From Pseudomonas asplenii (GTDB taxonomy: Bacteria; Pseudomonadota; Gammaproteobacteria; Pseudomonadales; Pseudomonadaceae), in NCBI RefSeq assembly GCF_001293465.1, contig NZ_JSYZ01000009.1:77078-141077 (forward strand): a DNA stretch of 64,000 nucleotides, written 5' to 3'. The position numbers and the translations under genes are program-made. Below, in pieces: positions 1 to 13,871 of the stretch (within the stretch, counting starts at the first letter, position 1; every line of letters starts with the position of its first letter). The notes beneath the pieces were generated by a model. That model ran no database searches. It saw nothing but the letters and a program-made list of their open reading frames with translations, and had not been told where the DNA came from.

Positions 1-45
1 GGCCCGACAACCTCGGCCGCCGCCCCTCTTTGCCTGGAGTACGCA

Positions 46-930
46 ATGAACATCGGCGACAAGCTGACCGTAGAAGCCTTCTTCGATCCCAACACCTGGA
101 CCATCAGTTACCTGGTGCTGGATCGCGATACCCGCTGCTGTGCGCTGATCGACAGCGTGCTCGACTACGACCCCAAGTCCGGCCGCACCCGCACCGAATC
201 CGCCGACCGCCTGCTGGCACGCATCCGCGAGCTGGATGCGAAAGTGGAGTGGATCCTGGAGACCCACGTGCATGCCGATCACCTGTCGGCGGCGGCTTAC
301 CTCAAGCAACAGTTGGGCGCCAAGGTGGCGATCGGCAGCCATATCACCGAAGTGCAACAGGTGTTCGGCGAGCTGTTCAACGAGGGCAGCGCGTTCCGTC
401 GCGACGGCAGCCAGTTCGACGTGCTGCTGGCCGACAATGGCGAGTTCGCCATCGGCCACCTGCGCGCCACCGCCCTGCACACCCCGGGACACACCCCGGC
501 GTGCATGAGCTACCTGATTCATGACGGGGACGAGACCGTCGCCTTCGTCGGCGACACCCTGTTCATGCCCGACTACGGCACCGCCCGCTGCGACTTCCCC
601 GGTGCCGACGCGCGCACCCTGTACCGCTCGATCCAGGGCCTGCTGGCGCTGCCGCCGCAGACCCGGCTGTTCATGTGCCACGACTACCTGCCAGGCGGGC
701 GTGAACTGCAATACATGACCACCGTGGCCGAACAGCGTGCGCGCAATATCCACATCCACGACGGCATCGACGAGGACACCTTCGTCAACATGCGCGAAGC
801 CCGTGACGCCACCCTCGACATGCCGGTGCTGATGCTGCCCTCGGTGCAGGTGAACATGCGCAGCGGCCAGTTGCCCGAGCCGGAAGACAACGGCGTGCGC
901 TACCTGAAAATCCCGCTGAACGCCCTTTGA
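46..930 (+). CDS. MBL-fold hydrolase, probable persulfide dioxygenase
   Basis: A 294-residue metallo-beta-lactamase-fold protein. The metal-binding motif HVHADH is at residues 74-79, a second ligand region is TPGHTPA near 150, and the FVGDTLF strand carries the bridging Asp. The family includes glyoxalase II-like and ETHE1/Blh-type persulfide dioxygenases that oxidise glutathione persulfide to sulfite. The adjacent sulfide:quinone oxidoreductase and TauE/SafE exporter make persulfide dioxygenase the better call, since together they would oxidise sulfide to persulfide, then sulfite, then export it. ATG is preceded by a CTGGAG ribosome-binding site. The promoter is probably left of the window. 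A generic MBL hydrolase cannot be excluded without alignment. Confidence 0.85.
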   Translation: MNIGDKLTVEAFFDPNTWTISYLVLDRDTRCCALIDSVLDYDPKSGRTRTESADRLLARIRELDAKVEWILETHVHADHLSAAAYLKQQLGAKVAIGSHITEVQQVFGELFNEGSAFRRDGSQFDVLLADNGEFAIGHLRATALHTPGHTPACMSYLIHDGDETVAFVGDTLFMPDYGTARCDFPGADARTLYRSIQGLLALPPQTRLFMCHDYLPGGRELQYMTTVAEQRARNIHIHDGIDEDTFVNMREARDATLDMPVLMLPSVQVNMRSGQLPEPEDNGVRYLKIPLNAL

Positions 931-946
931 GCCAGGATCCGACTTC

Positions 947-2215
947 ATGAATTCGAACAGCAGCAACGCCCCGGTCCAGCACCAGGTCCTGATCATCGGC
1001 GCCGGCGCCGCCGGCATCGCCACCGCCGCCAGCCTGCTGGCCCGTGCCCCCGGCCTGGATATCGCGATCATCGACCCGGCCGACACCCACTATTACCAGC
1101 CGGGCTGGACCCTGGTCGGTGCCGGGGTGTTCAGCCCCGAGTCGACCGCCCGCCCACTGGCCTCGCTGATCCCCCGTGGCGTGCAATGGATCAAGGCCGC
1201 GGTCAGCGCCTTCGAACCGGACGCCAACTGCGTGGTGCTGGCCGACCAGCGTCGCATCGGCTACCGGCAACTGGTGGTCTGCCCCGGCCTGAAACTGAAC
1301 TGGGGCGCCATCGACGGCCTGGAGGACACCCTCGGGCGCAACGGCGTGACCTCCAACTACCGCTACGACCTGGCACCCTACACCTGGAAACAGGTGCAGG
1401 CGCTCAAGGAAGGTCAGGCGCTGTTCTGCCAGCCACCGATGCCGATCAAGTGCGCCGGGGCGCCGCAGAAGGCGCTGTACCTGTCCTGTGACCACTGGTT
1501 GAAAAATGGCCGCCAGGGCCAGGTCAAGGCCAGTTTTCTCAACGCCGGCGCGGTGCTGTTCGGGGTTCCCGACTATGTGCCGGCGCTGATGGAATACATC
1601 GACAAGTACGCCGTGGACCTGCAGTTCGGCCATAACCTGATTGCCGTGGACGGCCCGGCCAGACAGGCGACCTTCGCCCGCACCCTGGCGGACGGCAGCC
1701 GGGAAACCGTGGTGCGCGCCTTCGACCTGCTGCACGTGGTGCCGCCACAGATCGCTCCGGACTTCATCCGCAGCAGCCCGCTGGCCGATGCCGCCGGCTG
1801 GGTCGATGTCGACCCGGCCAGCCTGCGCCATCGCCGGTTCGCCAACATCCACGGCCTGGGTGACGTCACCAACACCAGCAACGCCAAGACCGCCGCGGCG
1901 GCGCGCAAGCAGGCACCAGTGGTGGCGAACAACGTGCTGGTGGCCCTGGGACGACTGACCCGCACGGCGGTCTATGACGGTTATGGCTCCTGCCCACTCA
2001 CCGTTGAGCGCGGCAAGATCGTCCTGGCCGAGTTCACCTACGGCGGCAAGCTGGCGCCGACCTTCGCCCCCTGGCTGCTCGACGGCCGTCGGCCGACCCG
2101 CCTGGCCTGGTGGCTGAAGGAACGGCTGCTGCCGCCGCTGTACTGGCGCGGCATGCTCAAGGGCCACGAATGGCTGGCCCGACCGATCCTGCAAGCGGAC
2201 AAGCCGGCGGTATGA
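947..2215 (+). CDS. sqr: Sulfide:quinone oxidoreductase (FAD-dependent)
   Basis: A 422-residue flavoprotein that oxidises sulfide and passes electrons to the quinone pool at the inner membrane. The FAD dinucleotide-binding motif GAGAAG is at residues 18-23. The PGLKLNWG segment, the Cys-containing CQPPMPIKCAG segment and a later YGSCPLT Cys fit the redox-active cysteines of the SQR family. A second dinucleotide-binding region near 290-310 contains GLGDV. It begins 16 bases after the MBL hydrolase and its stop overlaps the start of the TauE/SafE gene (ATGA), so the three genes are a translationally coupled operon. Its length agrees with type II SQRs. Confidence 0.9.
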   Translation: MNSNSSNAPVQHQVLIIGAGAAGIATAASLLARAPGLDIAIIDPADTHYYQPGWTLVGAGVFSPESTARPLASLIPRGVQWIKAAVSAFEPDANCVVLADQRRIGYRQLVVCPGLKLNWGAIDGLEDTLGRNGVTSNYRYDLAPYTWKQVQALKEGQALFCQPPMPIKCAGAPQKALYLSCDHWLKNGRQGQVKASFLNAGAVLFGVPDYVPALMEYIDKYAVDLQFGHNLIAVDGPARQATFARTLADGSRETVVRAFDLLHVVPPQIAPDFIRSSPLADAAGWVDVDPASLRHRRFANIHGLGDVTNTSNAKTAAAARKQAPVVANNVLVALGRLTRTAVYDGYGSCPLTVERGKIVLAEFTYGGKLAPTFAPWLLDGRRPTRLAWWLKERLLPPLYWRGMLKGHEWLARPILQADKPAV

Positions 2216-3036
2216 ACGAACATCTCTTGCTGGGCAGTGGGTTCGGCATATTGATCGGTGCCATCCTCGCCCTGACCGGTGCCGGGGGTGGCATCCTCGC
2301 GGTGCCGCTGCTGGTGTTCGGACTGGGCCTGTCGATGGTCCAGGCTGCGCCCATCGGCCTGCTCGCGGTGGGCCTGGCGGCAGCGATCGGTGCCCTGCTC
2401 GGCCTGCGCCAGGGCATCGTGCGTTATCGCGCCGCCGGCTTTATCGCCGGGATCGGCATCCTGCTCACCCCCGTCGGGCTGTGGCTGGCCCATCGACTGC
2501 CGAACGAACCGCTGGCGCTGGGCTTCGCCCTGGTGATGGTCTACGCCTGCGCGCGGATCTTCAACAAGGCCCGCCATGAACTCAGGCACGGCCAGCCGGC
2601 ACCGCGCGCCGAGTTCCTGCCCTGCGTGCTCAACCCGTTGCAGGGCCGCCTGCGCTGGACCCTGCCCTGCGCCCGGGCACTGACCGTCACCGGGATGGTG
2701 TCCGGGCTGCTCTCCGGGTTGCTCGGGGTCGGCGGCGGCTTCGTCATCATTCCGGCGCTGACCCGCTACACCAACCTGGACAGCAGGAGCATCGTCGCCA
2801 CCTCCCTGGCGGTGATCGCCCTGGTGTCCACCGCCAGCGTGGTCACGGCGACGCTCTCGGGCGTGATGCACTGGTCGGTCGGCGCGCCGTTTGCCGGTGG
2901 CGCGGTGCTGGGCCTGGTGCTCGGACGCCAGGTTGCCGGTCGCCTGGCCGGGCCACGCCTGCAACAGTTGTTCGCGGTGGTCGGCGTGACAGCCGCACTG
3001 CTGCTCGCCAGCCGTGCGCTGGGGTTGTCACTCTAG
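2212..3036 (+). CDS. TauE/SafE family sulfite/organosulfur exporter
   Basis: A 274-residue, strongly hydrophobic protein with about eight predicted membrane segments and glycine-rich repeats of the TauE/SafE (DUF81) family: GAGGGI near the N terminus and GVGGGF in the second half, as expected of its internal repeat. The chosen ATG overlaps the SQR stop (ATGA), although the frame is open further upstream inside sqr. In this operon it probably exports sulfite or another oxidised sulfur product made from sulfide; that substrate is inferred from context. Its stop overlaps the convergent oxygenase gene by three bases. Confidence 0.88.
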   Translation: MNEHLLLGSGFGILIGAILALTGAGGGILAVPLLVFGLGLSMVQAAPIGLLAVGLAAAIGALLGLRQGIVRYRAAGFIAGIGILLTPVGLWLAHRLPNEPLALGFALVMVYACARIFNKARHELRHGQPAPRAEFLPCVLNPLQGRLRWTLPCARALTVTGMVSGLLSGLLGVGGGFVIIPALTRYTNLDSRSIVATSLAVIALVSTASVVTATLSGVMHWSVGAPFAGGAVLGLVLGRQVAGRLAGPRLQQLFAVVGVTAALLLASRALGLSL

Positions 3037-3923: not shown

Positions 3924-4026
3924 CCGATAGCGCTCCCCATCAGGCGGATACAAGTTCCCGCACTCTAGAACAGGCGCACGCGGCGGCAACAGGTTCAGTG
4001 GCGAAAAAAAACCACCGTACAGCCGG

Positions 4027-4467
4027 TCACTCGGTGGGCATCTTGCGGAAACCCACCGCCAGGCGGTTCCAGCTGTTGATGGTGTTGATCGCCAGGGTCA
4101 GGTTAACCTGCTCGGCCGGCGTGAACTCGGCGTTGAGCAGAGCATAGTCTTCGTCCGGGGCGTGGGTTTCGGATACCCGGGTCAGTGCTTCGGTCCATGC
4201 CAGGGCCGCGCGCTCGCGGGCACTGAAGAACGGCGTTTCACGCCAGGCCGAGAGGGTGTACAGGCGCCGCTCGGTTTCACCGGCCTTGCGCGCATCGGCG
4301 CTGTGCATGTCCAGGCAGAAGGCGCAGCCGTTGATCTGCGAGGTGCGCATCTTCACCAGTTCCAGCAGGGATTTTTCCAGCGGCAGTTTGTTCACCGCGC
4401 CTTCCAGCGCCATCATGGCTTTCATGGCATCCGGGGAAGCGGTGTAGAAGTCGATACGAGGTTGCAT
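4027..4467 (-). CDS. Carboxymuconolactone decarboxylase/AhpD-family protein
   Basis: A 146-residue protein of the AhpD-like fold. The redox signature is GCAFCLDMH, with Cys48 and Cys51 forming CxxC and His55 placed as in alkylhydroperoxidase AhpD. Such proteins reduce peroxides or act as thiol-dependent peroxidases. It is divergent from a MocR-type regulator with a 174-base gap, an arrangement in which the regulator commonly controls the neighbour. The start ATG follows a GAGGAAAA ribosome-binding sequence. The physiological substrate cannot be read from the sequence. Confidence 0.85.
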   Translation of the reverse strand: MQPRIDFYTASPDAMKAMMALEGAVNKLPLEKSLLELVKMRTSQINGCAFCLDMHSADARKAGETERRLYTLSAWRETPFFSARERAALAWTEALTRVSETHAPDEDYALLNAEFTPAEQVNLTLAINTINSWNRLAVGFRKMPTE

Positions 4468-4641
4468 GGCAGTTTTCCTCAGGAGGTTGGCGATGGCGCT
4501 ACGTTAAGCCCAGTGGGCTCCAGACCAAATAGCCAATTCCGGGCAAGATCGGTAAGCCAATCGACCGGTACTGCCATGGGCCGGGACCGCAGGCTAAACT
4601 GCGGCCTGACAGGCACCACCCCCTCCCTCCAGCGAGCCCAC

Positions 4642-6078
4642 ATGGAACTGCACATCACCCTCGAGGGTCGTCGCGACCTGGCCAGGCAGATCACCGATCA
4701 ACTGCGCAACGCCATCACCAGCGGAAAACTGGCGGCCGGCACGCAACTGCCACCCACCCGCCTGCTGGCCGAGCAACTGGGGGTGTCACGCAAGACCGTG
4801 GCCGATGCCTACGCGCAACTGACCTACGACAACCTGCTGGTCGGCCGGGTCGGCGCCGGGACCTTCGTCAACTCGCATACGCCCCAGGAACGCACCCCGG
4901 CCCAGAGCGAGGAGCTGGCCGGTGCGGCAGTGGTACGCCAATGGCGCGAGGCCTCGGTACCGCTGCATCATCCGCTTGGCACCCTGCGCTACGACTACCT
5001 CGGCGGGGCCACCAGCAAGCACCAGTTCCCCCATGACGAATGGCGTCGCTGCGTGCTCTTCGCCCTGCGCCAGACCGCCCAGGCCCGTGGCCTGTACAGC
5101 CAGCCGGAGGGCATCCCGATGCTGCGCGAGGCGGTGGCCCGGCATATCGGCTTTGCTCGCGGCGTGCGCTGCAACGCCACCGACCTCTTGATAACCAATG
5201 GTGCCCAGCAGGCCCTGGACCTGGTCGCGCGGGTGCTGGTGGAGCCCGGCTGCACCGTCGCCGTCGAGGACCCCGGCTACCCGCCGGCGCGATTGCTGTT
5301 CGCCGCCCAGGGCGCGCGGGTGGTCGGCGTACCGGTGGATGCGCAGGGCATCCGGGTCGACCGGATTCCCGAGGGCACACGGCTGATCTACGTGACCCCG
5401 GCGCACCAGTTCCCCCTCGGCATGCCGATGAGCCTGGAGCGGCGTCAGGCCCTGCTGGAACGGGCGAGGGAACTGGGCGCGATCGTCATCGAGGACGACT
5501 ACGACTGCGAATTCCGCTACGAAGGACGGCCCACCGACTGCCTGCAGAGCCTCGACCGGCATGGCCTGGTGGCCTATGTCGGGACCTTCTCCAAGACCCT
5601 GCTGCCGGAGCTGCGCCTGGGCTACCTGGTGGCGCCGCCGGGGTTGCTCAAGGCATTGATCTCGGCCAAGCAGCTGACCGACTGGCACACCGCGACCCTG
5701 GCCCAGTGGGCCCTGGCCAAGTTCATCAACGATGGCTGCCTGGTCAAGCATATCCGCCGCTGCCACCAGGCCTACGCCAGCCGCCGCGAGAAGCTGATCG
5801 AACGGCTGGACGGCGACCTGTCGCCCTGGTTCGAACGCATCCACTCCACCGCCGGCTACCATATGGCGGTCCTCGATCGCGGCACGGTGGACATCGCGCA
5901 ACTGATCGAGCTGGCGAAACGCTTCGAGGTCGGCCTCTACCCCCTGGCGCCCTTCTACCACAGCACGCCGCCACGCACCGGCCTGCTGATGGGCTACGGC
6001 TCGATCGAGACCCTGGACATCCAGCCGTCCCTGGACCGGGTACTCGGACTGCTTCGCCAACTATGCTCTGAGAATTGA
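4642..6078 (+). CDS. MocR-type (GntR/aminotransferase) transcriptional regulator
   Basis: A 478-residue protein with two parts. The N-terminal GntR winged helix-turn-helix spans about residues 10-75 (SRKTVADAYAQL recognition region). The C-terminal part, from about 110, is a fold-type I aminotransferase domain. The PLP lysine is Lys318 in the TFSKTLLPELRLGY motif, and the NAGAQQ-like and EDDYDCEFRY segments are typical of MocR/PdxR regulators. The frame is open about 480 bases further upstream, but the ATG at 4642 gives the expected family length and begins right at the GntR domain. It is divergent from the AhpD-family gene, the likeliest target. The effector is unknown. Confidence 0.88.
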   Translation: MELHITLEGRRDLARQITDQLRNAITSGKLAAGTQLPPTRLLAEQLGVSRKTVADAYAQLTYDNLLVGRVGAGTFVNSHTPQERTPAQSEELAGAAVVRQWREASVPLHHPLGTLRYDYLGGATSKHQFPHDEWRRCVLFALRQTAQARGLYSQPEGIPMLREAVARHIGFARGVRCNATDLLITNGAQQALDLVARVLVEPGCTVAVEDPGYPPARLLFAAQGARVVGVPVDAQGIRVDRIPEGTRLIYVTPAHQFPLGMPMSLERRQALLERARELGAIVIEDDYDCEFRYEGRPTDCLQSLDRHGLVAYVGTFSKTLLPELRLGYLVAPPGLLKALISAKQLTDWHTATLAQWALAKFINDGCLVKHIRRCHQAYASRREKLIERLDGDLSPWFERIHSTAGYHMAVLDRGTVDIAQLIELAKRFEVGLYPLAPFYHSTPPRTGLLMGYGSIETLDIQPSLDRVLGLLRQLCSEN

Positions 6079-6084
6079 AAACGG

Positions 6085-6831
6085 CTATGCAGGTGGCGCT
6101 CCAGCTACAGCCGGAGCAATAACCTGATGGATCACCTCACTCAGCCGGTTTCGGAAGAGATTGAAGCTATCCATCGCGATCCGGTGAGGGTCCACTTCAC
6201 CATTACGTATCGCATCATTGATATCAGCGGCCGACGATAAACCGTTGCGCACCCGTTCAAGCTGAGATTTGAGCGAATCTGGAGAGTCATCATTACCCGA
6301 TGCCTGTTCCAGCGCCGCGCAATGCTGATAGTTAGGTTCTCGAAATGCGCATAACAACCAGGCTTCCGACTTGGGCTTGGGCAACATAGGAACACCCAGT
6401 GATGAGCCACCCGCTTCAAAACCCTTGATCATGGATTGCCATTTTGCCGACCACTCTCCTCGATCTGAAGACTGCGTACCATCAGCATCTCGAAACAAAA
6501 CCGGGACGACCACGTCACTGCTTTCCTGAGCCAGAGCAACAGCCTTGAGTGCAAGCCGCCGAGCATTTTCGTAGTAATAGCCCGTCTCTTTGGATTTACC
6601 CTTGCCTGGCGCCGAGAACCGGCGACCATGATGCTTGGGCTCCACGGCAACCAGTTGAGACTTATGGATGAACTGCACACCTTGGTAGTCGAACAATGAA
6701 TACCCCATCAGTCTCTCGATCAGCAGATCCAGAATCAGACACATCGGCCCTGGGGAAAACTCGAACCCTTCTTCACCGGGAGACTGACGACCTATATCCG
6801 ATGGCCCTTCTCCACTGACCAGAAGCAACAT
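6085..6831 (-). CDS. TOPRIM-like protein, partner of the upstream ATPase
   Basis: A 248-residue protein that I do not assign to a named gene. Acidic residues are spaced as in TOPRIM/RloB/DUF4276-like nuclease domains: VSGEGPSD at the N terminus (Glu8, Asp12), a strand ending in LFRDADG (Asp115, Asp117), and PKPKSEAWLL (Lys154, Glu156) in the C-terminal half. It starts five bases after the ATPase stop with an AGGTAGTAGGG leader, so the two are coupled. ATPase plus TOPRIM-like pairs are known from AbiL-type and RloA/RloB-type loci; by analogy it may be the nuclease of a defence module. The base composition is visibly less GC-rich than the neighbours, suggesting acquisition. Confidence 0.55.
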   Translation of the reverse strand: MLLLVSGEGPSDIGRQSPGEEGFEFSPGPMCLILDLLIERLMGYSLFDYQGVQFIHKSQLVAVEPKHHGRRFSAPGKGKSKETGYYYENARRLALKAVALAQESSDVVVPVLFRDADGTQSSDRGEWSAKWQSMIKGFEAGGSSLGVPMLPKPKSEAWLLCAFREPNYQHCAALEQASGNDDSPDSLKSQLERVRNGLSSAADINDAIRNGEVDPHRIAMDSFNLFRNRLSEVIHQVIAPAVAGAPPA

Positions 6832-6836
6832 CCCTA

Positions 6837-8048
6837 CTACCTCGCGACCAAACGCCCGATTTCCTGAGGCAGACGCACCAGATCGGTATCAACAAATACC
6901 TCTCCAGGCCCCATGACAGTGAGCTTTTCCGCCACAGAGGGAATGGAAAAGAAAGGGATAGTCCGCGTTCTGCCATCGTCAGTCTTATAGATAAACCGGA
7001 CCCCTTCGCGGGCAACATCATCTTCGAGATAATTGAGAATCATCGGGCTATGGGTAGTGACCATGACCTGCCGATCAATGCTTACCAGATAATCCAGCAA
7101 AAACTCGATCAGTTCCGGATTTATACCGTTCTCTACTTCGTCAAACAGCATGAAACCGTGACTGGACAAAGTTTCGGCCAGTATCGCCATCAAACGCAGC
7201 ATGCCGTCGTTCATGTGCCGGGCGTGAGTGCTGAATGTTCCAGTGCTGTAGGTTTCCTGTATAGCCAGGGACTTCCAGCCAGAGTTCAAGGACTTGAGCT
7301 CAATTGACTGAAGTTTCGGATAGTTTTTCTTCAACATTGTCAGCAGGGAGTCCAGTTCGCTGGGCGCCAACTGATGGATGAACGCGGAAAGTTTCTCTCC
7401 AGCAAATCCCAGGTCGCCGTCGCTTCCTCGTGCCTGTTTGCGCAGATACTGGGGAGACAACGCATCCAGAGAGGTGATGGTAGAAACGAACTTCTTGAGC
7501 TTCAGGATTGCCGGCGGCAAGCTGGTCTCCTTCAGAGCGGAAAGGACCGACCCCTGGTATTCGAAATTGATCGACCCACTGCTACCAGTCGCTGTATTGC
7601 CCTTTTTCTCGTGGGTAGACAAGCGCCCATCCTCAACCAAGAGAAGGTTTTCATCGATTTGCCATAACTCTTCTGTGCAGCGTAGAAAGGTGCGGTTAAA
7701 ACTTGCTTTCCACAGCGCACGTTCACCATCGACTTCAAAAACGACCTCAAATTTTATGTTGCTACTCTTGCTCAACTTGGATTTCAGGTCGATCGGTTTC
7801 CACTCGCGCTTTTTCAGCCAGCCGGATAAGTCTCCCTTGATTTGTTGAGAGAGGAAATCCAGTGCCTGCAGGATCGTTGACTTTCCAGCACCGTTCAGCC
7901 CGATCAAGCAAGTGAAATTCGCCAAATGCATCTCAAAGCCGACAAGGGATTTGAAATTATCTATCTTGAACTCACAGAGGCGTATGCCCTCTTCCGCTGG
8001 CTGCCCGATCCGGGATCGTTCACCACCGATTTCGCGCTTACCCATCAT
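6837..8048 (-). CDS. AAA family ATPase (SMC/OLD-like, AAA15/AAA21 type)
   Basis: A 403-residue ATPase. The Walker A motif GLNGAGKS is at about residues 50-57, directly after a KIDNFKSL strand typical of OLD/RecF-like ATPases. The Walker B/DE motif FMLFDEVENGI comes late, followed by an MVTTHSPMIL switch segment. The frame is open up to 8162, but tandem ATG codons at 8043-8048 follow an AAGGAAC ribosome-binding site, and the upstream residues do not resemble the family. It is the first gene of a two-gene unit with the TOPRIM-like protein. The role is probably nucleotide-driven control of that partner, as in OLD- or Gabija-like defence where ATPase and TOPRIM are fused. GC is lower than in flanking genes. 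Confidence 0.82.
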   Translation of the reverse strand: MMGKREIGGERSRIGQPAEEGIRLCEFKIDNFKSLVGFEMHLANFTCLIGLNGAGKSTILQALDFLSQQIKGDLSGWLKKREWKPIDLKSKLSKSSNIKFEVVFEVDGERALWKASFNRTFLRCTEELWQIDENLLLVEDGRLSTHEKKGNTATGSSGSINFEYQGSVLSALKETSLPPAILKLKKFVSTITSLDALSPQYLRKQARGSDGDLGFAGEKLSAFIHQLAPSELDSLLTMLKKNYPKLQSIELKSLNSGWKSLAIQETYSTGTFSTHARHMNDGMLRLMAILAETLSSHGFMLFDEVENGINPELIEFLLDYLVSIDRQVMVTTHSPMILNYLEDDVAREGVRFIYKTDDGRTRTIPFFSIPSVAEKLTVMGPGEVFVDTDLVRLPQEIGRLVAR

Positions 8049-8255
8049 GATTGTTCCTTGATCTGATATCGCAGCAAAAAGGGAACCAATATAGGTCAGC
8101 ATGGCTGACCACTCAAGTTGCAGGGCTTTCGCAAGACAGCCGCTCCTGGCAATAGCTGACACGGCGCAATTGCCAGCGCCGGGTGCACACCGCTAGAATG
8201 CGATCAATTCTTAATTACATTCATGCAGGATGCCGCCCTGCGAGCAGTCGGTGCC

Positions 8256-8753
8256 ATGTCGTCAGCCCCTCACCCGCATATTCATACGCTCTACAGCGAG
8301 CATCACGGCTGGCTGCATGGCTGGCTCCAGCGCAAGCTGGGTAACAGCTGCGATGCCGCGGACCTGGCCCACGACACCTTCCTGCGCCTGCTCAGCCGCC
8401 CTGCCGCACGCTCGCTGGGCAGCGAGCCGCGGGCCCTGCTGACGCACATCGCCAAGGGCCTGGTGATCGATCGCTGGCGCCGCCAGGAAGTCGAGCGGGC
8501 CTATCTGGAGACCATCGCCCACCTGCCAACCCAGGAGGTGCCCTCGCCGGAAACCCGCCTGCTGATCCTCGAAACCCTGTGGCGGATCGAGGCACTGCTG
8601 CGGGAAATGCCGCGCAAGACCCGTGAGGCGTTCCTGCTGTCGCAGATCGAGGGCCTGACCTACGGACAGATCGCCGAGCGCCTGGGCGTCTCGCTGATCA
8701 GCGTCAAGCGCTACATGCGCGATGCGTTCATCGCCTGCCTGAGCGTCGCCTGA
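8256..8753 (+). CDS. ECF sigma factor, FecI-like (iron-starvation type)
   Basis: A 165-residue ECF sigma factor from the chosen ATG; an alternative in-frame ATG at 8223 would add 11 residues. Region 2 carries DAADLAHDTFLRLL, and region 4 ends with the helix-turn-helix TYGQIAERLGVSLISVKRY. It overlaps the FecR-like gene (TGATG) and is followed by a TonB receptor, the classical sigma/anti-sigma/receptor cell-surface signalling unit. It probably directs transcription of the receptor when a heterologous ferric siderophore binds. The 60 bases upstream are AT-rich with a poor Fur-box resemblance near 8199-8222; Fur control is expected for the family but only weakly visible here. Confidence 0.88.
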   Translation: MSSAPHPHIHTLYSEHHGWLHGWLQRKLGNSCDAADLAHDTFLRLLSRPAARSLGSEPRALLTHIAKGLVIDRWRRQEVERAYLETIAHLPTQEVPSPETRLLILETLWRIEALLREMPRKTREAFLLSQIEGLTYGQIAERLGVSLISVKRYMRDAFIACLSVA

Positions 8754-9718
8754 TGAGCCAGGCGCCGATCAACCCGCATATCCTCGGCGAGGCGGCCGAC
8801 TGGCTGGTGCAGTTGCACTCCGGTACGGCGACGGCGGCCGATCGCCTGGCCATCGAACAGTGGCGCCAGCGCAGTGCCGAGCATGCCCAGGCCTGGCAAC
8901 GGGCCGAGGCGGTACTGGGCGACTTTCGCAACGTGCCGGCCGGGATCGTCAGGGACACCCTCAAGCGCGTCGAGCGCCAGCAGGGCCTTGGTCGTCGCCA
9001 GGTGCTGAACCGCATCGGCCTGTTACTGCTGGCCGCCCCCATCGGCGTGGCCTGGCAACGTGGCACTTGGGAGCAGTGGACCGCCGACCAGCGCACCGCC
9101 GTCGGCGAGCAGAAAACCCTGACCCTGGCCGATGGCAGCCAGGTGCTGCTCAATACCGACAGTTCACTGGATATCGCCTTCAGCAGCCAGGAACGTCGGC
9201 TGATCCTGCTGAGCGGCGAGATCCTGGTCAGCACCGCCCGCGACCCGGCGCCCACCCATCGCCCCTTCATCGTCGAGACCCCGCAGGGAACCGCGCGGGC
9301 ACTGGGCACCCGTTTCAACGTCAGGATCGACGGGCAGCGCAGCGAGGTTGCGGTGCTCGAAGGAGCGGTGGAATTGAAGACCCAGGTCGGCGGGCCCGGT
9401 TCGACGTTGCAGGTCGGGCAACGGGCAGGCCTGCAGCACAGCCGTATCGAACCGCTGGAGAACTTCGATATCGCCAGCCTCACCTGGGACCGCGGCATGC
9501 TGCTGGCGCGCAACATGCGCCTGGCGCAGGTGCTGCAGGAACTGGGGCGTTACCGGCCAGGCGTATTGCGCTGCCAGTCGGCGGTGGCCGAGTTGCGGGT
9601 ATCCGGGGCATTTTCGCTGAAGGACACCGATTCGAGCCTGCAATTGCTGCAGAACACCCTGCCCTTGAAGGTCAGCCGGTTGACCCGGTACTGGGTGTCG
9701 GTCGAGGGCCGGGCCTGA
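8753..9718 (+). CDS. FecR-like anti-sigma/sigma regulator
   Basis: A 321-residue single-pass inner-membrane regulator. The N-terminal cytoplasmic DUF4880-type region spans about residues 1-80. One hydrophobic segment (IGLLLLAAPIGVAW) lies near residues 89-102. The periplasmic FecR domain contains LSGEILVSTA and TARALGTRFNVR. The C terminus resembles the STN-interacting domain that contacts the receptor's signalling domain. The start overlaps the sigma-factor stop by one base, implying translational coupling and balanced amounts of the two proteins. It should hold the upstream sigma factor in check and release or activate it when the downstream receptor signals. Confidence 0.88.
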   Translation: MSQAPINPHILGEAADWLVQLHSGTATAADRLAIEQWRQRSAEHAQAWQRAEAVLGDFRNVPAGIVRDTLKRVERQQGLGRRQVLNRIGLLLLAAPIGVAWQRGTWEQWTADQRTAVGEQKTLTLADGSQVLLNTDSSLDIAFSSQERRLILLSGEILVSTARDPAPTHRPFIVETPQGTARALGTRFNVRIDGQRSEVAVLEGAVELKTQVGGPGSTLQVGQRAGLQHSRIEPLENFDIASLTWDRGMLLARNMRLAQVLQELGRYRPGVLRCQSAVAELRVSGAFSLKDTDSSLQLLQNTLPLKVSRLTRYWVSVEGRA

Positions 9719-9850
9719 TCTGTAGAGTCCCTTCGCGGACAGAACACCGCTCCTCCCCAGAAAAAATCTCCCCTGAACTGATACCTTTTCCACTCTCGTC
9801 CGGTGTGTGGATAACCCCTTGCGTTTCCACGCTTCCGACAGGACTGTTCG

Positions 9851-12283
9851 ATGACCTCCAGGCACCACCCGCTGACACCCCGCCTGCCGCTGCAGGCGCT
9901 GACCCTGGCCCTCGGCCTGACGCTCGGTGTCACCCTGCCCTCCGCCAGCCACGCCGCTGAAGTCGCCGCCGAAAATACCGTGCGCCCCTACGCCATCGCC
10001 CCCGGCCCACTGCACCAGGTGCTGGCGCAGTTCGCCGTCAGCGCCGGCGTGCCGCTGTCGTTCGACCCGGCGCTGCTGGGCAACCGCCAGAGCCCCGGAC
10101 TCAACGGCAGCTACGGCGTGCTCGAAGGCTTCCAGCACCTGCTGCAAGGCAGCGGCTTCGATCTGATCAGCAGCGGCGGCAACGGCTACACCCTCGCTCC
10201 CCATGTCGAGGCCAATGGCGCCCTGGAACTGGGGGCGACCAACATCAGCGGCCAGTCCGCCGAAGACGCCGATATCTACAGCGGTGGCCAGGTGGCCCGC
10301 AGCGCCCGCCTGGGGATGCTCGGCACCCAGTCGGTGCAGGACGTGCCCTTCAGCGTCACCAGCTACACCGCGCAGACCCTGCGTGACCAACAGGCACAGA
10401 CCGTCGGCGATGTGCTGCTCAACGACGCCTCGGTGCGTCAGTCCGCAGGCTTCGGCAACTTCTCCCAGGTGTTCATGATCCGCGGCCTGCCGCTCAACGG
10501 CGACGATATCTCCTATAACGGCCTGTACGGCGTTCTGCCCCGGCAGATCATCGCCACCGAAGCGCTGGAACGGGTCGAACTGTTCAAGGGCCCGAACGCT
10601 TTCATCAATGGCGTCACCCCCGGAGGTAGCGGTATCGGCGGCGGGGTCAACCTGCAGCCCAAACGCGCCGGGGACACCCCGACCCGCAGCGTCACCCTCG
10701 ATGCCGGCGGCTCGGGGCGTGCCGGTGCGCATGTCGACCTGGGCCAGCGCTTCGGTGAGGACAACCGTTTCGGCGCACGCCTGAACCTGTTGCAACGCGA
10801 GGGCGATTCCGGGATCGACGACGAAGACCGACGCTCGACCCTCGCCACCCTCGGCCTGGACTATCGCGGCGAACGCCTGCGGCTGTCGGCGGATATCGGC
10901 TACCAGAAGCAGGTGATCAATCAGGGCCGGCCGGTGATCTACCTCGACTCCAGCCTGAACAAGGTACCCCACGCGCCGTCGGCCAAGGACAACTACGCCC
11001 AGTCCTGGAGTTATTCACAATTGGAAGACACCTTCGGCATGGCCCGTGCCGAATATGACTTCAACGACAACTGGACCGGCTACGTCGCCGGTGGCGCCAA
11101 GTACACCCGGGAGAACGGCGTGTACTCCTCGCTGACCCTCACCGACACCGCCGGCAACGCCCGCGGCGGTATGCTCTACGCGCCCCACACCGAGGACAAC
11201 CGGAGCCTGATGGCCGGGCTCAACGGCCGCGTGCAGACCGGCCCGGTCAGTCATCAACTGAGCTTCGGCCTGGCCGGGATGTGGGGTGAACAACGCTCGG
11301 CCTATGAGAACATCGCCAGCGCCGGGCGCTACTACAACAACATCTACGATGCGGTGCCGCGTCCACGGCCGGTGGCGACCTCATTCGGCAGCGACATCCA
11401 CGATCCGCGGGTGGTCGGCAGGAACCAGATCCGCAGCACGGCGGTGGCCGACACCCTGGGTTTTCTCGATGACCGCGTGCTGTTGACCGTCGGGGCGCGC
11501 CGCCAGTCCATCGTGGTCAATGGCTGGAACACCGTCACCGGCGTGCATAACGCCAGCTACGACGAGTCGATCACGACACCGGTCTATGGGCTGGTGATCA
11601 AACCCTGGGAACATGTGTCGTTCTACGCCAACCGTATCGAAGGCCTGGCCAAGGGGCCGTCAGCCCCCACTACCGCGATCAACAGCACCGAGACCTTTGC
11701 GCCGGTGCGCAGCAAACAGGTCGAGGCAGGTGTGCGCCTGGACATGGACAGCTACGGTGGCAGCCTCGGCGTCTATCGCATCGAACAGCCGTCCAGCTAC
11801 ACCGGTTCCGACCGGATCTTCCGGGTCGAGGGTGAGCAGATCAACAAGGGCGTCGAACTGAACCTGTTCGGCGAACCGCTGCCGGGCCTGCGCCTGCTGG
11901 GCGGTGCAACGGTGATGAAAACCGAGCTGACCGGCACCCTCAACGGCACCAACGATGGCAACCGCGCGATCGGCGTGCCGAGCTTCCAGTTCAACCTGGG
12001 CGCCGACTGGGACGTACCGGGTATCGAGGGCGCGGCTCTGAGCGCACGGATGCTGCGCACCGGCGGGCAGTATGCGAACGCCAGCAACACACTGAGCCTG
12101 CCGAGCTGGAACCGTTTCGACCTGGGCTCGCGCTATCGCTTCAAGCTGGATGAGAAGGAAGTCACCCTGCGGGCCAACCTGGAGAACGTGGCCAATACCG
12201 CCTACTGGGCTTCGGCCAACGGCGGGTACCTGACCCAGGGGACGCCGCGAACCCTGAAAGTCTCGGCGACGGTGGATTTCTGA
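9851..12283 (+). CDS. TonB-dependent siderophore receptor with signalling (STN) domain
   Basis: An 810-residue outer-membrane receptor. It has a signal peptide ending near SHAAE, then an STN secretin/TonB signalling domain at about residues 45-115. The plug contains VQDVPFSVTSYTAQTL and GGSGIGGGVNLQPKR, and the 22-strand barrel ends in the terminal Phe needed for BAM insertion. It is about the length of FpvA/FiuA-type transducing receptors. A separate 132-base gap from fecR probably carries the promoter read by the upstream sigma factor. The plug and barrel look closer to ferrichrome- or hydroxamate-type receptors than to FpvA, but the ligand is a guess. An ACAGGAC ribosome-binding site precedes the ATG. 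Confidence 0.88.
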   Translation: MTSRHHPLTPRLPLQALTLALGLTLGVTLPSASHAAEVAAENTVRPYAIAPGPLHQVLAQFAVSAGVPLSFDPALLGNRQSPGLNGSYGVLEGFQHLLQGSGFDLISSGGNGYTLAPHVEANGALELGATNISGQSAEDADIYSGGQVARSARLGMLGTQSVQDVPFSVTSYTAQTLRDQQAQTVGDVLLNDASVRQSAGFGNFSQVFMIRGLPLNGDDISYNGLYGVLPRQIIATEALERVELFKGPNAFINGVTPGGSGIGGGVNLQPKRAGDTPTRSVTLDAGGSGRAGAHVDLGQRFGEDNRFGARLNLLQREGDSGIDDEDRRSTLATLGLDYRGERLRLSADIGYQKQVINQGRPVIYLDSSLNKVPHAPSAKDNYAQSWSYSQLEDTFGMARAEYDFNDNWTGYVAGGAKYTRENGVYSSLTLTDTAGNARGGMLYAPHTEDNRSLMAGLNGRVQTGPVSHQLSFGLAGMWGEQRSAYENIASAGRYYNNIYDAVPRPRPVATSFGSDIHDPRVVGRNQIRSTAVADTLGFLDDRVLLTVGARRQSIVVNGWNTVTGVHNASYDESITTPVYGLVIKPWEHVSFYANRIEGLAKGPSAPTTAINSTETFAPVRSKQVEAGVRLDMDSYGGSLGVYRIEQPSSYTGSDRIFRVEGEQINKGVELNLFGEPLPGLRLLGGATVMKTELTGTLNGTNDGNRAIGVPSFQFNLGADWDVPGIEGAALSARMLRTGGQYANASNTLSLPSWNRFDLGSRYRFKLDEKEVTLRANLENVANTAYWASANGGYLTQGTPRTLKVSATVDF

Positions 12284-12389: not shown

Positions 12390-12407
12390 AAGCGATATCC
12401 CTCTCCC

Positions 12408-13871
12408 CTAAAGTCCACGGCTACGCAGCCACTGCATGAACCCACGCTTGACCTCCGGCTTGGGCACCTCGCGGGTAAAGTTCTGCGCCGCATGCAGGCG
12501 GTGATCGAGCAGGCTGCGCATCGCCTCGCCGATATCATGCCGGGCATCCAGGCACGGCTTGAGGTATTCCTTCTCGATCCGGTACAGCAGGCAATCGGTC
12601 TTGGCCGTAAAGTCCGCCGGCATCCCCTGCTCGGCGAGGATCCCGGCTTCGCCGATCACCTCCCCCGGCCCCATCCGCGCCGCCTCCACGGGCTTGTCGC
12701 CGCGCAACAGCGTCACCGACACCACGCCCGACTCGATAATGAACAGATGGTCGCTGACCTCGCCCCGCGGCAGGATCACGCTGCCCGCGCGAAACAGCTG
12801 CGGGACCATGTTCTGGCTGAAGGTCTCCTTCTCCTCGGAACGCAGCGTCGAGAAGATCGGCGAACTTTCCAGCAGCGCCCGCGGGCGCGACGTCGAACTC
12901 GGCAAGGCACTCTCCACCGTGGACAGCAGGCTTACCCCCGACGCCTGCAAATGGCGGAACGCCAGGTCGAACAGCTGATTGCGCACCTCGCGCTTGAGCC
13001 CCATGGCGCTGACGAAACCGCTGATTTCGTATTCGACGCCCGTCGCACTGGAACTCTTGAGCGCCACGCTCGGCGCCGGCGTCGTCAACAGCGCCCGACA
13101 ACCGAGCACCGCCCGCTCCAGGGCGTCGATCACCACATGGGGCCGCACATGCGGGCTGACCTGCAGGCTGATGGCCAGGCCGTGTACATCGCTGGGCCGG
13201 CTGAAGTTGATGATCCGCGCTTTCGCCGCCAGGGAGTTGGGCACCACCGCCAGGCTGCCCTGGGAGGTCTGCAGGCGGGTGGCACGCCAGTCGATATCGA
13301 CCACCCGACCCTCGGTGCCGTCGATGGAGATCCAGTCATCGACCTGGTAGGGCTTGGTGGTGTTGAGCACGATGCCGGAAAACACGTCGCTGAGGGTGCT
13401 CTGCAACGCCAGGCCGACGATGATCGCGAACGCCCCGGAGGTCGCCAGCACGCCCTTGACCGGCAGATCGAGCACATAGGCCGCCGCCGCGATGATCGCG
13501 ATCAGGAAGATGATCGCCCCCAGCACGTCCTGCAGCAGTCGCCCGGCATGCCCGACCCGCTGCATCATCACCGTGCCGACCAGTACCGTCAGGGTCCGTG
13601 CACCGAACAGCCACCAGCCGATCTGCAGGCCGGTGGCGGCCAGGTGCCGGGAGATATCCTCGGGCCAGGGCGCGATCTGCATCGGATTCATGCCTTCGTT
13701 GAACAGCACCAGGCTGTACAGCGAAAACACGGTCAGGCGCACCACCAGCTTCCAGTTGCTGCTGCGCGTGCCGAGCAGGCGCCACAGCAGCAGGTCGATC
13801 ACCAGCAGGAACAGCGCGCACAGCAGCGGGTGTTCGGACAGCAGGGGGTGTTGGGTGAACAGGTCAGGCAT
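12408..13871 (-). CDS. MscS-family channel with C-terminal cyclic-nucleotide-binding domain
   Basis: A 487-residue membrane protein. It has several N-terminal hydrophobic segments, then the MscS pore and beta domain (glycine/alanine-rich TSGAFAIIVGLALQSTLSDV, then DDWISIDGTEGRVVDIDWR), and a C-terminal cNMP-binding fold with GEVSDHLFIIESGVVSV and GEVIGEAGIL. This is the MscS-CNBD architecture, in which a nucleotide may gate or tune a mechanosensitive pore. The open frame reaches 13928, but the ATG at 13871 has a GGAG site and gives a natural N terminus. It lies 77 bases downstream of the pirin gene on the same strand and may be co-transcribed. The nucleotide ligand is unknown. Confidence 0.87.
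   Translation of the reverse strand: MPDLFTQHPLLSEHPLLCALFLLVIDLLLWRLLGTRSSNWKLVVRLTVFSLYSLVLFNEGMNPMQIAPWPEDISRHLAATGLQIGWWLFGARTLTVLVGTVMMQRVGHAGRLLQDVLGAIIFLIAIIAAAAYVLDLPVKGVLATSGAFAIIVGLALQSTLSDVFSGIVLNTTKPYQVDDWISIDGTEGRVVDIDWRATRLQTSQGSLAVVPNSLAAKARIINFSRPSDVHGLAISLQVSPHVRPHVVIDALERAVLGCRALLTTPAPSVALKSSSATGVEYEISGFVSAMGLKREVRNQLFDLAFRHLQASGVSLLSTVESALPSSTSRPRALLESSPIFSTLRSEEKETFSQNMVPQLFRAGSVILPRGEVSDHLFIIESGVVSVTLLRGDKPVEAARMGPGEVIGEAGILAEQGMPADFTAKTDCLLYRIEKEYLKPCLDARHDIGEAMRSLLDHRLHAAQNFTREVPKPEVKRGFMQWLRSRGL

Follow-up and report, generated by a model that had tools for sequence, protein, structure and literature searches.

The described systems closest to the gene pair analysed here combine an OLD-type ABC ATPase with TOPRIM logic. 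In OLD nucleases and in GajA of Gabija these two parts are fused in one protein, whereas PARIS uses a separate OLD-ABC ATPase (AriA) and a TOPRIM-type partner (AriB). According to PMC12409363, AriA sequesters AriB, a two-metal TOPRIM enzyme that cuts tRNA, and ariAB is reported to be co-localised inside a Salmonella BREX locus (PMC11341690). In a 2026 survey (PMC12839542), OLD-ABC modules linked to TOPRIM are described in general as backup effectors of BREX; this was the only paper on OLD-ABC proteins with TOPRIM in conflict systems that we found in the open-licence literature. PADLOC in addition lists a two-gene family, PDC-M25, as a candidate, PDC standing for phage defence candidate (PMC11514479). 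No mechanism is given for PDC-M25 in the catalogue and none was found in the open-licence literature searched, where the string 'PDC-M25' occurred in no paper.

The pair lies in a 64,000-nucleotide stretch of Pseudomonas asplenii DNA (hereafter the window; the genome it comes from is G000). The genes and the extent of the insert that carries them are as follows:

4642..6078, + strand: MocR-type (GntR-aminotransferase) regulator, 478 aa from the ATG common to G006; flank, outside the system
6042..8156, no strand: inserted cassette, approximate extent, from the alignment to empty sites
6085..6831, - strand: gene B, 248 aa, ATG at 6831 to stop at 6085; TOPRIM-like putative nuclease, PDC-M25B
6837..8048, - strand: gene A, 403 aa, ATG at 8048 to stop at 6837; OLD/Rad50-type ABC ATPase, PDC-M25A
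8223..8753, + strand: ECF-type sigma factor; flank, outside the system

Gene B starts downstream of gene A after a spacing of 5 nt, and the cassette contains neither a third gene nor a regulator gene. The GC content of positions 6085-8048 is 51.6%, compared to 66.9% and 66.8% in the 2-kb flanks, in agreement with the original prediction, which had described a lower-GC, compositionally foreign gene pair. The low-GC insert measures ~2.1 kb, and the MocR and ECF-sigma genes abut in two close relatives. The comparison with empty sites that the original prediction proposed was made by a search of 398 genus genomes with the locus DNA. In genomes G328 and G044, which lack the cassette, the matches to the MocR and ECF-sigma genes are separated by 45 nt and 63 nt, respectively, window positions ~6042-8156 are missing, and the flanks are 92% and 89% identical to those of the window. 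The same site after the MocR gene is occupied by the pair in G416 and in Pseudomonas fuscovaginae SE-1 (L082); the pair is absent from G328, whose flanks are at least as similar to the window. The right-flank alignment of G416 ends at 8132 and restarts at 12406, and hence this genome lacks the sigma/receptor cluster; a short stretch next to its pair (L070) was read by eye as a sigma-gene remnant. In G169, whose contig is identical with that of Pseudomonas sp. FEN (L083), the orientation is as in the window and the pair is located between segments homologous to window positions 34-3029 and 12424-13845, without the genes that the window carries between these two segments. From our reading of their ORFs, the segments presumably encode a sulfide/sulfite module with a TauE-type exporter and a mechanosensitive channel. 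They bracket a stretch of variable gene content among the relatives, of which G169 holds little beyond the pair. No direct repeats of at least 14 nt bracketing the cassette were found, no tRNAs were found in the window, and there was no Rfam match at gathering scores over positions 4000-10000.

Gene B was present in 5 of 298 genus genomes, its own included; a draw from across the class contained 368 other genomes, one of which had B. The pair is therefore not core. This patchy, accessory distribution differs from that of a vertically inherited core pair, the pattern that the original prediction had named as speaking against its proposal. The dN/dS values, calculated against G416 and P. fuscovaginae SE-1 (L082), are ~0.10 for A and 0.11-0.23 for B. 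These values indicate that the pair is under purifying selection and, as it persists in at least four lineages, that the insertion is not brand new.

Gene A encodes a complete ABC ATPase. Its product matches the Pfam families AAA_21 (2.3e-22, 80.9 bits) and AAA_15 (60.5 bits), and contains a P-loop (G50-LNGAGKST), a Walker B motif (D303-E304) and H333; residues N52, G55, K56, D303, E304 and H333 are invariant in 74 A proteins. The structural model of A (pLDDT 92.9) matched SMC, Rad50 and PtuA heads with Z ~19-21. A does not contain a TOPRIM domain, so that the OLD architecture is here divided between two genes. The presence of SMC and Rad50 heads among the best structural neighbours of A is what would be expected if the genes formed a DNA repair or chromosome-maintenance pair (SMC/RecF/SbcC-like) without a link to phages. 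That reading, already disfavoured by the patchy distribution, is made highly improbable by the presence of the pair in only 5 of 298 genus genomes, its low GC content, the empty sites and the embedding of relatives in BREX operons described below.

The original prediction had proposed a pair without a match that it could name. Both genes, though, match PADLOC models nearly end to end: A matches PDC-M25A at 7.6e-160 (residues 24-400) and B matches PDC-M25B at 1.8e-92 (residues 1-238). The order and coupling of the genes are as in the relatives, and no tested feature differs, except that the window copy stands alone. By these profile matches the pair is a stand-alone member of the two-gene phage-defence candidate PDC-M25. 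A also matched the HEC-01A ATPase at 2.4e-30 (PADLOC) and mad3 of MADS at 7.2e-21 (NCBIfam), the latter with 75 of 420 bits and thus far under the MADS3 family cut-off, and B matched no MADS partner in the NCBIfam and PADLOC scans.

The acidic motifs E...DxD...KxE that the original prediction had read in B turned out to be strongly conserved. G7, E8, G9, D12, D115, D117, S155, E156 and W158 are invariant in 75 B proteins, and K154 is conserved in at least 90% of them. The motif set of the window protein is thus E8, D115xD117 and K154-S-E156-A-W158, with K154-S-E156-x-W as the family motif. All members of the acidic set of the TOPRIM superfamily (E, DxD and a third acidic residue) are present as the invariant residues E8, D115, D117 and E156, and the order E-G..D, DxD, KxE-x-W is that expected of TOPRIM-type nucleases, to which B is assigned as a putative member on these motifs. 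The AlphaFold2 model of B (pLDDT 92, pTM 0.90) has a strand ending at E8, a helix, a strand, a helix, a strand ending before the DxD motif, a helix, and a strand before KSE; an additional hairpin follows E8. This order of elements is compatible with the TOPRIM fold. Structural comparison with the TOPRIM domains of OLD proteins gave weak scores (Z 4.9-5.7; best 6njw, Z 5.7, rmsd 4.2 over 154 residues), which were exceeded by those of unrelated lumazine synthases (Z up to 7.4). Foldseek searches with B against PDB and viral models gave no match at E<=0.001, and a PDB sequence search with the B profile gave none at E<=10.

In Pfam, the window B had no match at E<=1 and the B consensus matched no family either; there was no match for B in NCBIfam. 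PF14103 (DUF4276) was weakly matched by 15 of the 75 B relatives at E<=0.1 (best 6e-4), under the cut-off. Profile comparisons with a first set of 6 DUF4276 proteins gave only P 0.093, and with a first small RloB set P 0.012 with an alignment off the motifs; because these comparisons were weak, larger sets were built. With 23 DUF4276 proteins the B profile gave P 2.5e-4 (local) and 5e-6 (global), compared to 0.32 and 0.07 for reversed-profile controls, and the alignment paired DxDG and KPKSEAWLL of B with the corresponding stretches of DUF4276. The link to DUF4276 was thus clear in the larger sets, whereas those to RloB (P 0.045, local) and to AriB (hhalign, P 0.23, not significant) were unconvincing. 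These comparisons indicate that B is distantly related to DUF4276. The motif order E-G, DxD, E-x-W-L-L, as read in alignments, is common to B, DUF4276 and RloB (PF13707), and is strictest in RloB. No paper linking DUF4276 to phage, or to an AAA ATPase and defense, was found in the open-licence literature.

The likeness to a split Gabija/OLD or an AbiL/RloAB arrangement contained in the original prediction stands as far as it concerns an OLD architecture divided over two genes; it does not extend to membership of Gabija or RloAB. Gabija was rejected because A ends at 403 aa without a TOPRIM domain and no GajB helicase adjoins the pair, its neighbours being the MocR and ECF-sigma genes. RloAB/AbiL was rejected as well: the window genome contains no PF13707 match, and B is without a Pfam match. 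The profile search that the original prediction had suggested also returned no DUF4276 (PF14103) or DUF4435 (PF14491) match in the window genome. B scores under the PF14103 gathering score, so that membership of DUF4276 was rejected and the relation is a distant one. For PARIS, PMC9122126 gives ATPase thresholds of 32 bits (AAA_15) and 27 bits (AAA_21), and A scores above both (60.5 and 80.9 bits, respectively). The PARIS partner, however, is a DUF4435 protein and B is not; as B matches no Pfam family and the window genome has no PF14491 match, membership of PARIS was also rejected. PARIS is nevertheless the system closest to the pair in arrangement and genomic setting.

Relatives were collected by a profile-guided scan of genome contigs, and the best 80 of 100 confirmed relatives were read as loci. 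These 80 loci are drawn from many bacterial groups. A is located directly upstream of B in 79 of them; the remaining locus, L145, retains only a 53-residue remnant of A. In a few further loci A is broken or truncated at a contig end. The start of B lies between -23 and +22 nt from the stop of A in 76 of the 80 loci, and between +96 and +337 nt in the other four; the coupling of A and B noted in the original prediction is therefore tight in the family as well as in the window. B was also found in seven plasmid records, five of which were read. In a distant copy, L081 on a Hydrogenimonas plasmid, a gene annotated as an HNH endonuclease (4235-4942) is situated directly 3' of B. No B relatives were confirmed in phage records or viral contigs, and no A relatives in viral contigs. 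Among 5426 E. coli genomes one contained a single partial DNA match, at an AAA ATPase.

BREX core genes flank the pair in 28 of these best 80 loci; the other 52 are without BREX genes, 20 of them having too little flank to judge. In addition, the pair is inside a type I BREX operon in four of the five plasmid loci. All 32 BREX-linked copies are on the BREX strand. They are located between pglX and pglZ in 24 cases and between brxC and pglX in three, and in the remaining five no second core gene is reached before the end of the locus; some copies are separated from the core genes by other genes, up to ~6 kb. Like PDC-M25, PARIS occurs inside type I BREX operons, and PARIS genes were present in four of the 32 BREX-linked loci: between pglX and pglZ in L079, L139 and L142, and as the AriB part in L130. 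As both occur together in these loci, PARIS and PDC-M25 are not simple alternatives. The pglX-pglZ intervals of L094, L128, L133, L136, L139 and L142 contain additional OLD-type ATPase genes of weak similarity to A (28-44 bits), together with PARIS genes in the case of L139 and L142, as if several such modules had been stacked there. The window pair has no adjoining BREX core genes, its direct neighbours being the MocR and ECF-sigma genes, and no PglZ over the cut-off was found in the window genome (one sub-threshold match, 21.4 vs 25 bits).

We mapped the BREX label onto a tree built from 79 rows of concatenated A+B. It needs at least 14 changes when 17 short-flank rows are set aside (16 with all rows), and none of 500 shuffles gave a number as low. 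This indicates many transfers of the module into or out of BREX. The window belongs to a ten-row group (support 85, not starred) that has no BREX member, two of its rows having too little flank to judge. Among 126 neighbours of 32 stand-alone copies (2 of 128 were omitted for length), no PADLOC family matched more than two neighbours at E<=1e-10. Defence islands around the stand-alone copies were therefore rejected, as there is no recurrent defence neighbour. When 10 of these neighbours were inspected in more detail, isolated examples emerged: L101 has a type I REase and a Ppl-like protein, L146 a type IIG enzyme and L096 PDC-S73.

Since the family is found repeatedly inside an anti-virus operon, the pair is very likely a virus-defence unit, which lends support to the original prediction of an anti-phage candidate in which an OLD-like ATPase is paired with a separately encoded TOPRIM-like protein. 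We consider it probable that the PDC-M25 cassette is a horizontally acquired, self-contained and PARIS-like system, in which an ATPase restrains a nuclease that is freed by a phage trigger. A would be the sensor and scaffold, as an OLD-type ABC ATPase, and B the effector, as a two-metal TOPRIM-type nuclease that A would hold inactive in uninfected cells. The trigger may be a phage protein or a DNA state caused by the phage, and may well be one by which restriction or BREX is disabled; it would alter A and free B, and B would then cleave either host RNA, for example tRNA, or DNA, and stop the infected cell, an abortive outcome. Points against this reading are the weak fold matches of B and its lack of a Pfam match, the lack of a recurrent defence neighbour among stand-alone copies, and the absence from the window genome of a PglZ over the cut-off that the pair could guard. 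With the hhalign comparison to AriB not significant, and the P values for RloB no better than 0.01-0.05, the likeness to PARIS rests on arrangement and setting and not on homology of B to AriB.

The main rival is a defence of the OLD/Gabija kind, in which a constitutive A-B complex would recognise and cut phage DNA directly, without sequestration and without an RNA target. The resemblance of A to OLD, Rad50 and PtuA ATPases would suit such a complex, as would the fact that the TOPRIM rows in the structural list of B, weak as they are, are OLD nucleases, and DNA-cutting OLD TOPRIMs are well documented (PMC10568477). However, ATPase and nuclease are encoded by separate genes, as in PARIS, with no helicase adjoining, and the BREX placement parallels that of PARIS, whose TOPRIM enzyme cuts tRNA. 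We therefore regard direct cutting of phage DNA as possible, though unlikely.

The region upstream of gene A contains two features that may control the cassette:

8088..8116, - strand: promoter-like site TTGAGT-17-TATATT upstream of A, conserved in the four carriers
8094..8110, - strand: 17-nt palindrome GGTCAGCCATGCTGACC, operator-like, exactly filling the promoter spacer

Two promoter-like sites were found in the region, compared to 1.2 +/- 1.2 in shuffles, so that TTGAGT-17-TATATT is by itself at chance level. In L082, G416 and L083 the palindrome GGTCAGCCATGCTGACC is conserved except for changes at its centre, while the DNA just upstream diverges. Each of the carrier genomes G000, G416 and G169 contains a single exact match to GGTCAGCNNNGCTGACC, always at the pair, and the two empty-site genomes contain none. 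Sites with at most one mismatch numbered 3, 7, 6, 1 and 6 in G000, G416, G169, G328 and G044, compared to 3, 2, 6, 8 and 5 for a reversed-pattern control; apart from a small excess in G416 there is therefore no sign of a regulon beyond the exact site. Palindromes with 8-nt arms were present upstream of four of 32 stand-alone copies (shuffled mean 0.45, maximum 2) and of none of 24 BREX-linked copies. With 7-nt arms the number was 4, against a shuffled value of 1.8 with a maximum of 6. This test used approximate A starts, and the operator of L082 and L083 falls just outside the tested stretch (178-179 nt upstream). A general rule of upstream palindromes in stand-alone copies was rejected, as the 7-nt-arm counts are near those of the shuffles and the sequences all differ. 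For these reasons, and given the approximate A starts, we limit the palindrome claim to the four-species clade. There, the palindrome and the lack of a regulator gene in the cassette suggest that the cassette may bind its own operator.

A cassette-private palindrome located exactly in the promoter spacer is also what autoregulation would predict for a toxin-antitoxin-like or cassette-maintenance pair with its own operator, in which B would be the toxin and A its restraint, and phage defence would be incidental. The tight coupling of A and B and the plasmid location of some copies fit such a pair, whereas the repeated insertion into BREX operons points to defence. Moreover, in the analogous PARIS system deletion of either gene was non-toxic, and its authors excluded a toxin-antitoxin system on this ground (PMC9122126). 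We consider this explanation improbable.

A bolder version of the PARIS-like reading is that PDC-M25 constitutes a second BREX-guard module, independent of PARIS and with a TOPRIM effector of another kind; it would move in and out of BREX operons and, in the Pseudomonas clade, would have become autonomous with its own operator. As the palindrome occupies the whole spacer of the promoter, moves along with the cassette and is not repeated exactly elsewhere in the genome, A or an A-B complex would be the likely repressor. Sensing of a phage would then take A-B off the operator, thereby both freeing the nuclease and raising expression. We put this forward as a tentative proposal with rather less than even prospects.

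The PDC-M25 family was already known as a candidate listed by PADLOC; the present analysis adds its BREX placement, a distant assignment of B to the DUF4276/TOPRIM type, the mapping of the insertion and the palindrome private to the cassette. Together, these results tie a catalogued, unexplained defence candidate to a testable mechanism, in which an OLD-type ATPase would restrain a TOPRIM-like effector. If PDC-M25 and PARIS are both guards with different triggers, BREX operons would carry interchangeable alarm modules, and the free-standing Pseudomonas copy, with just two genes, would be a minimal system in which to look for trigger and substrate.
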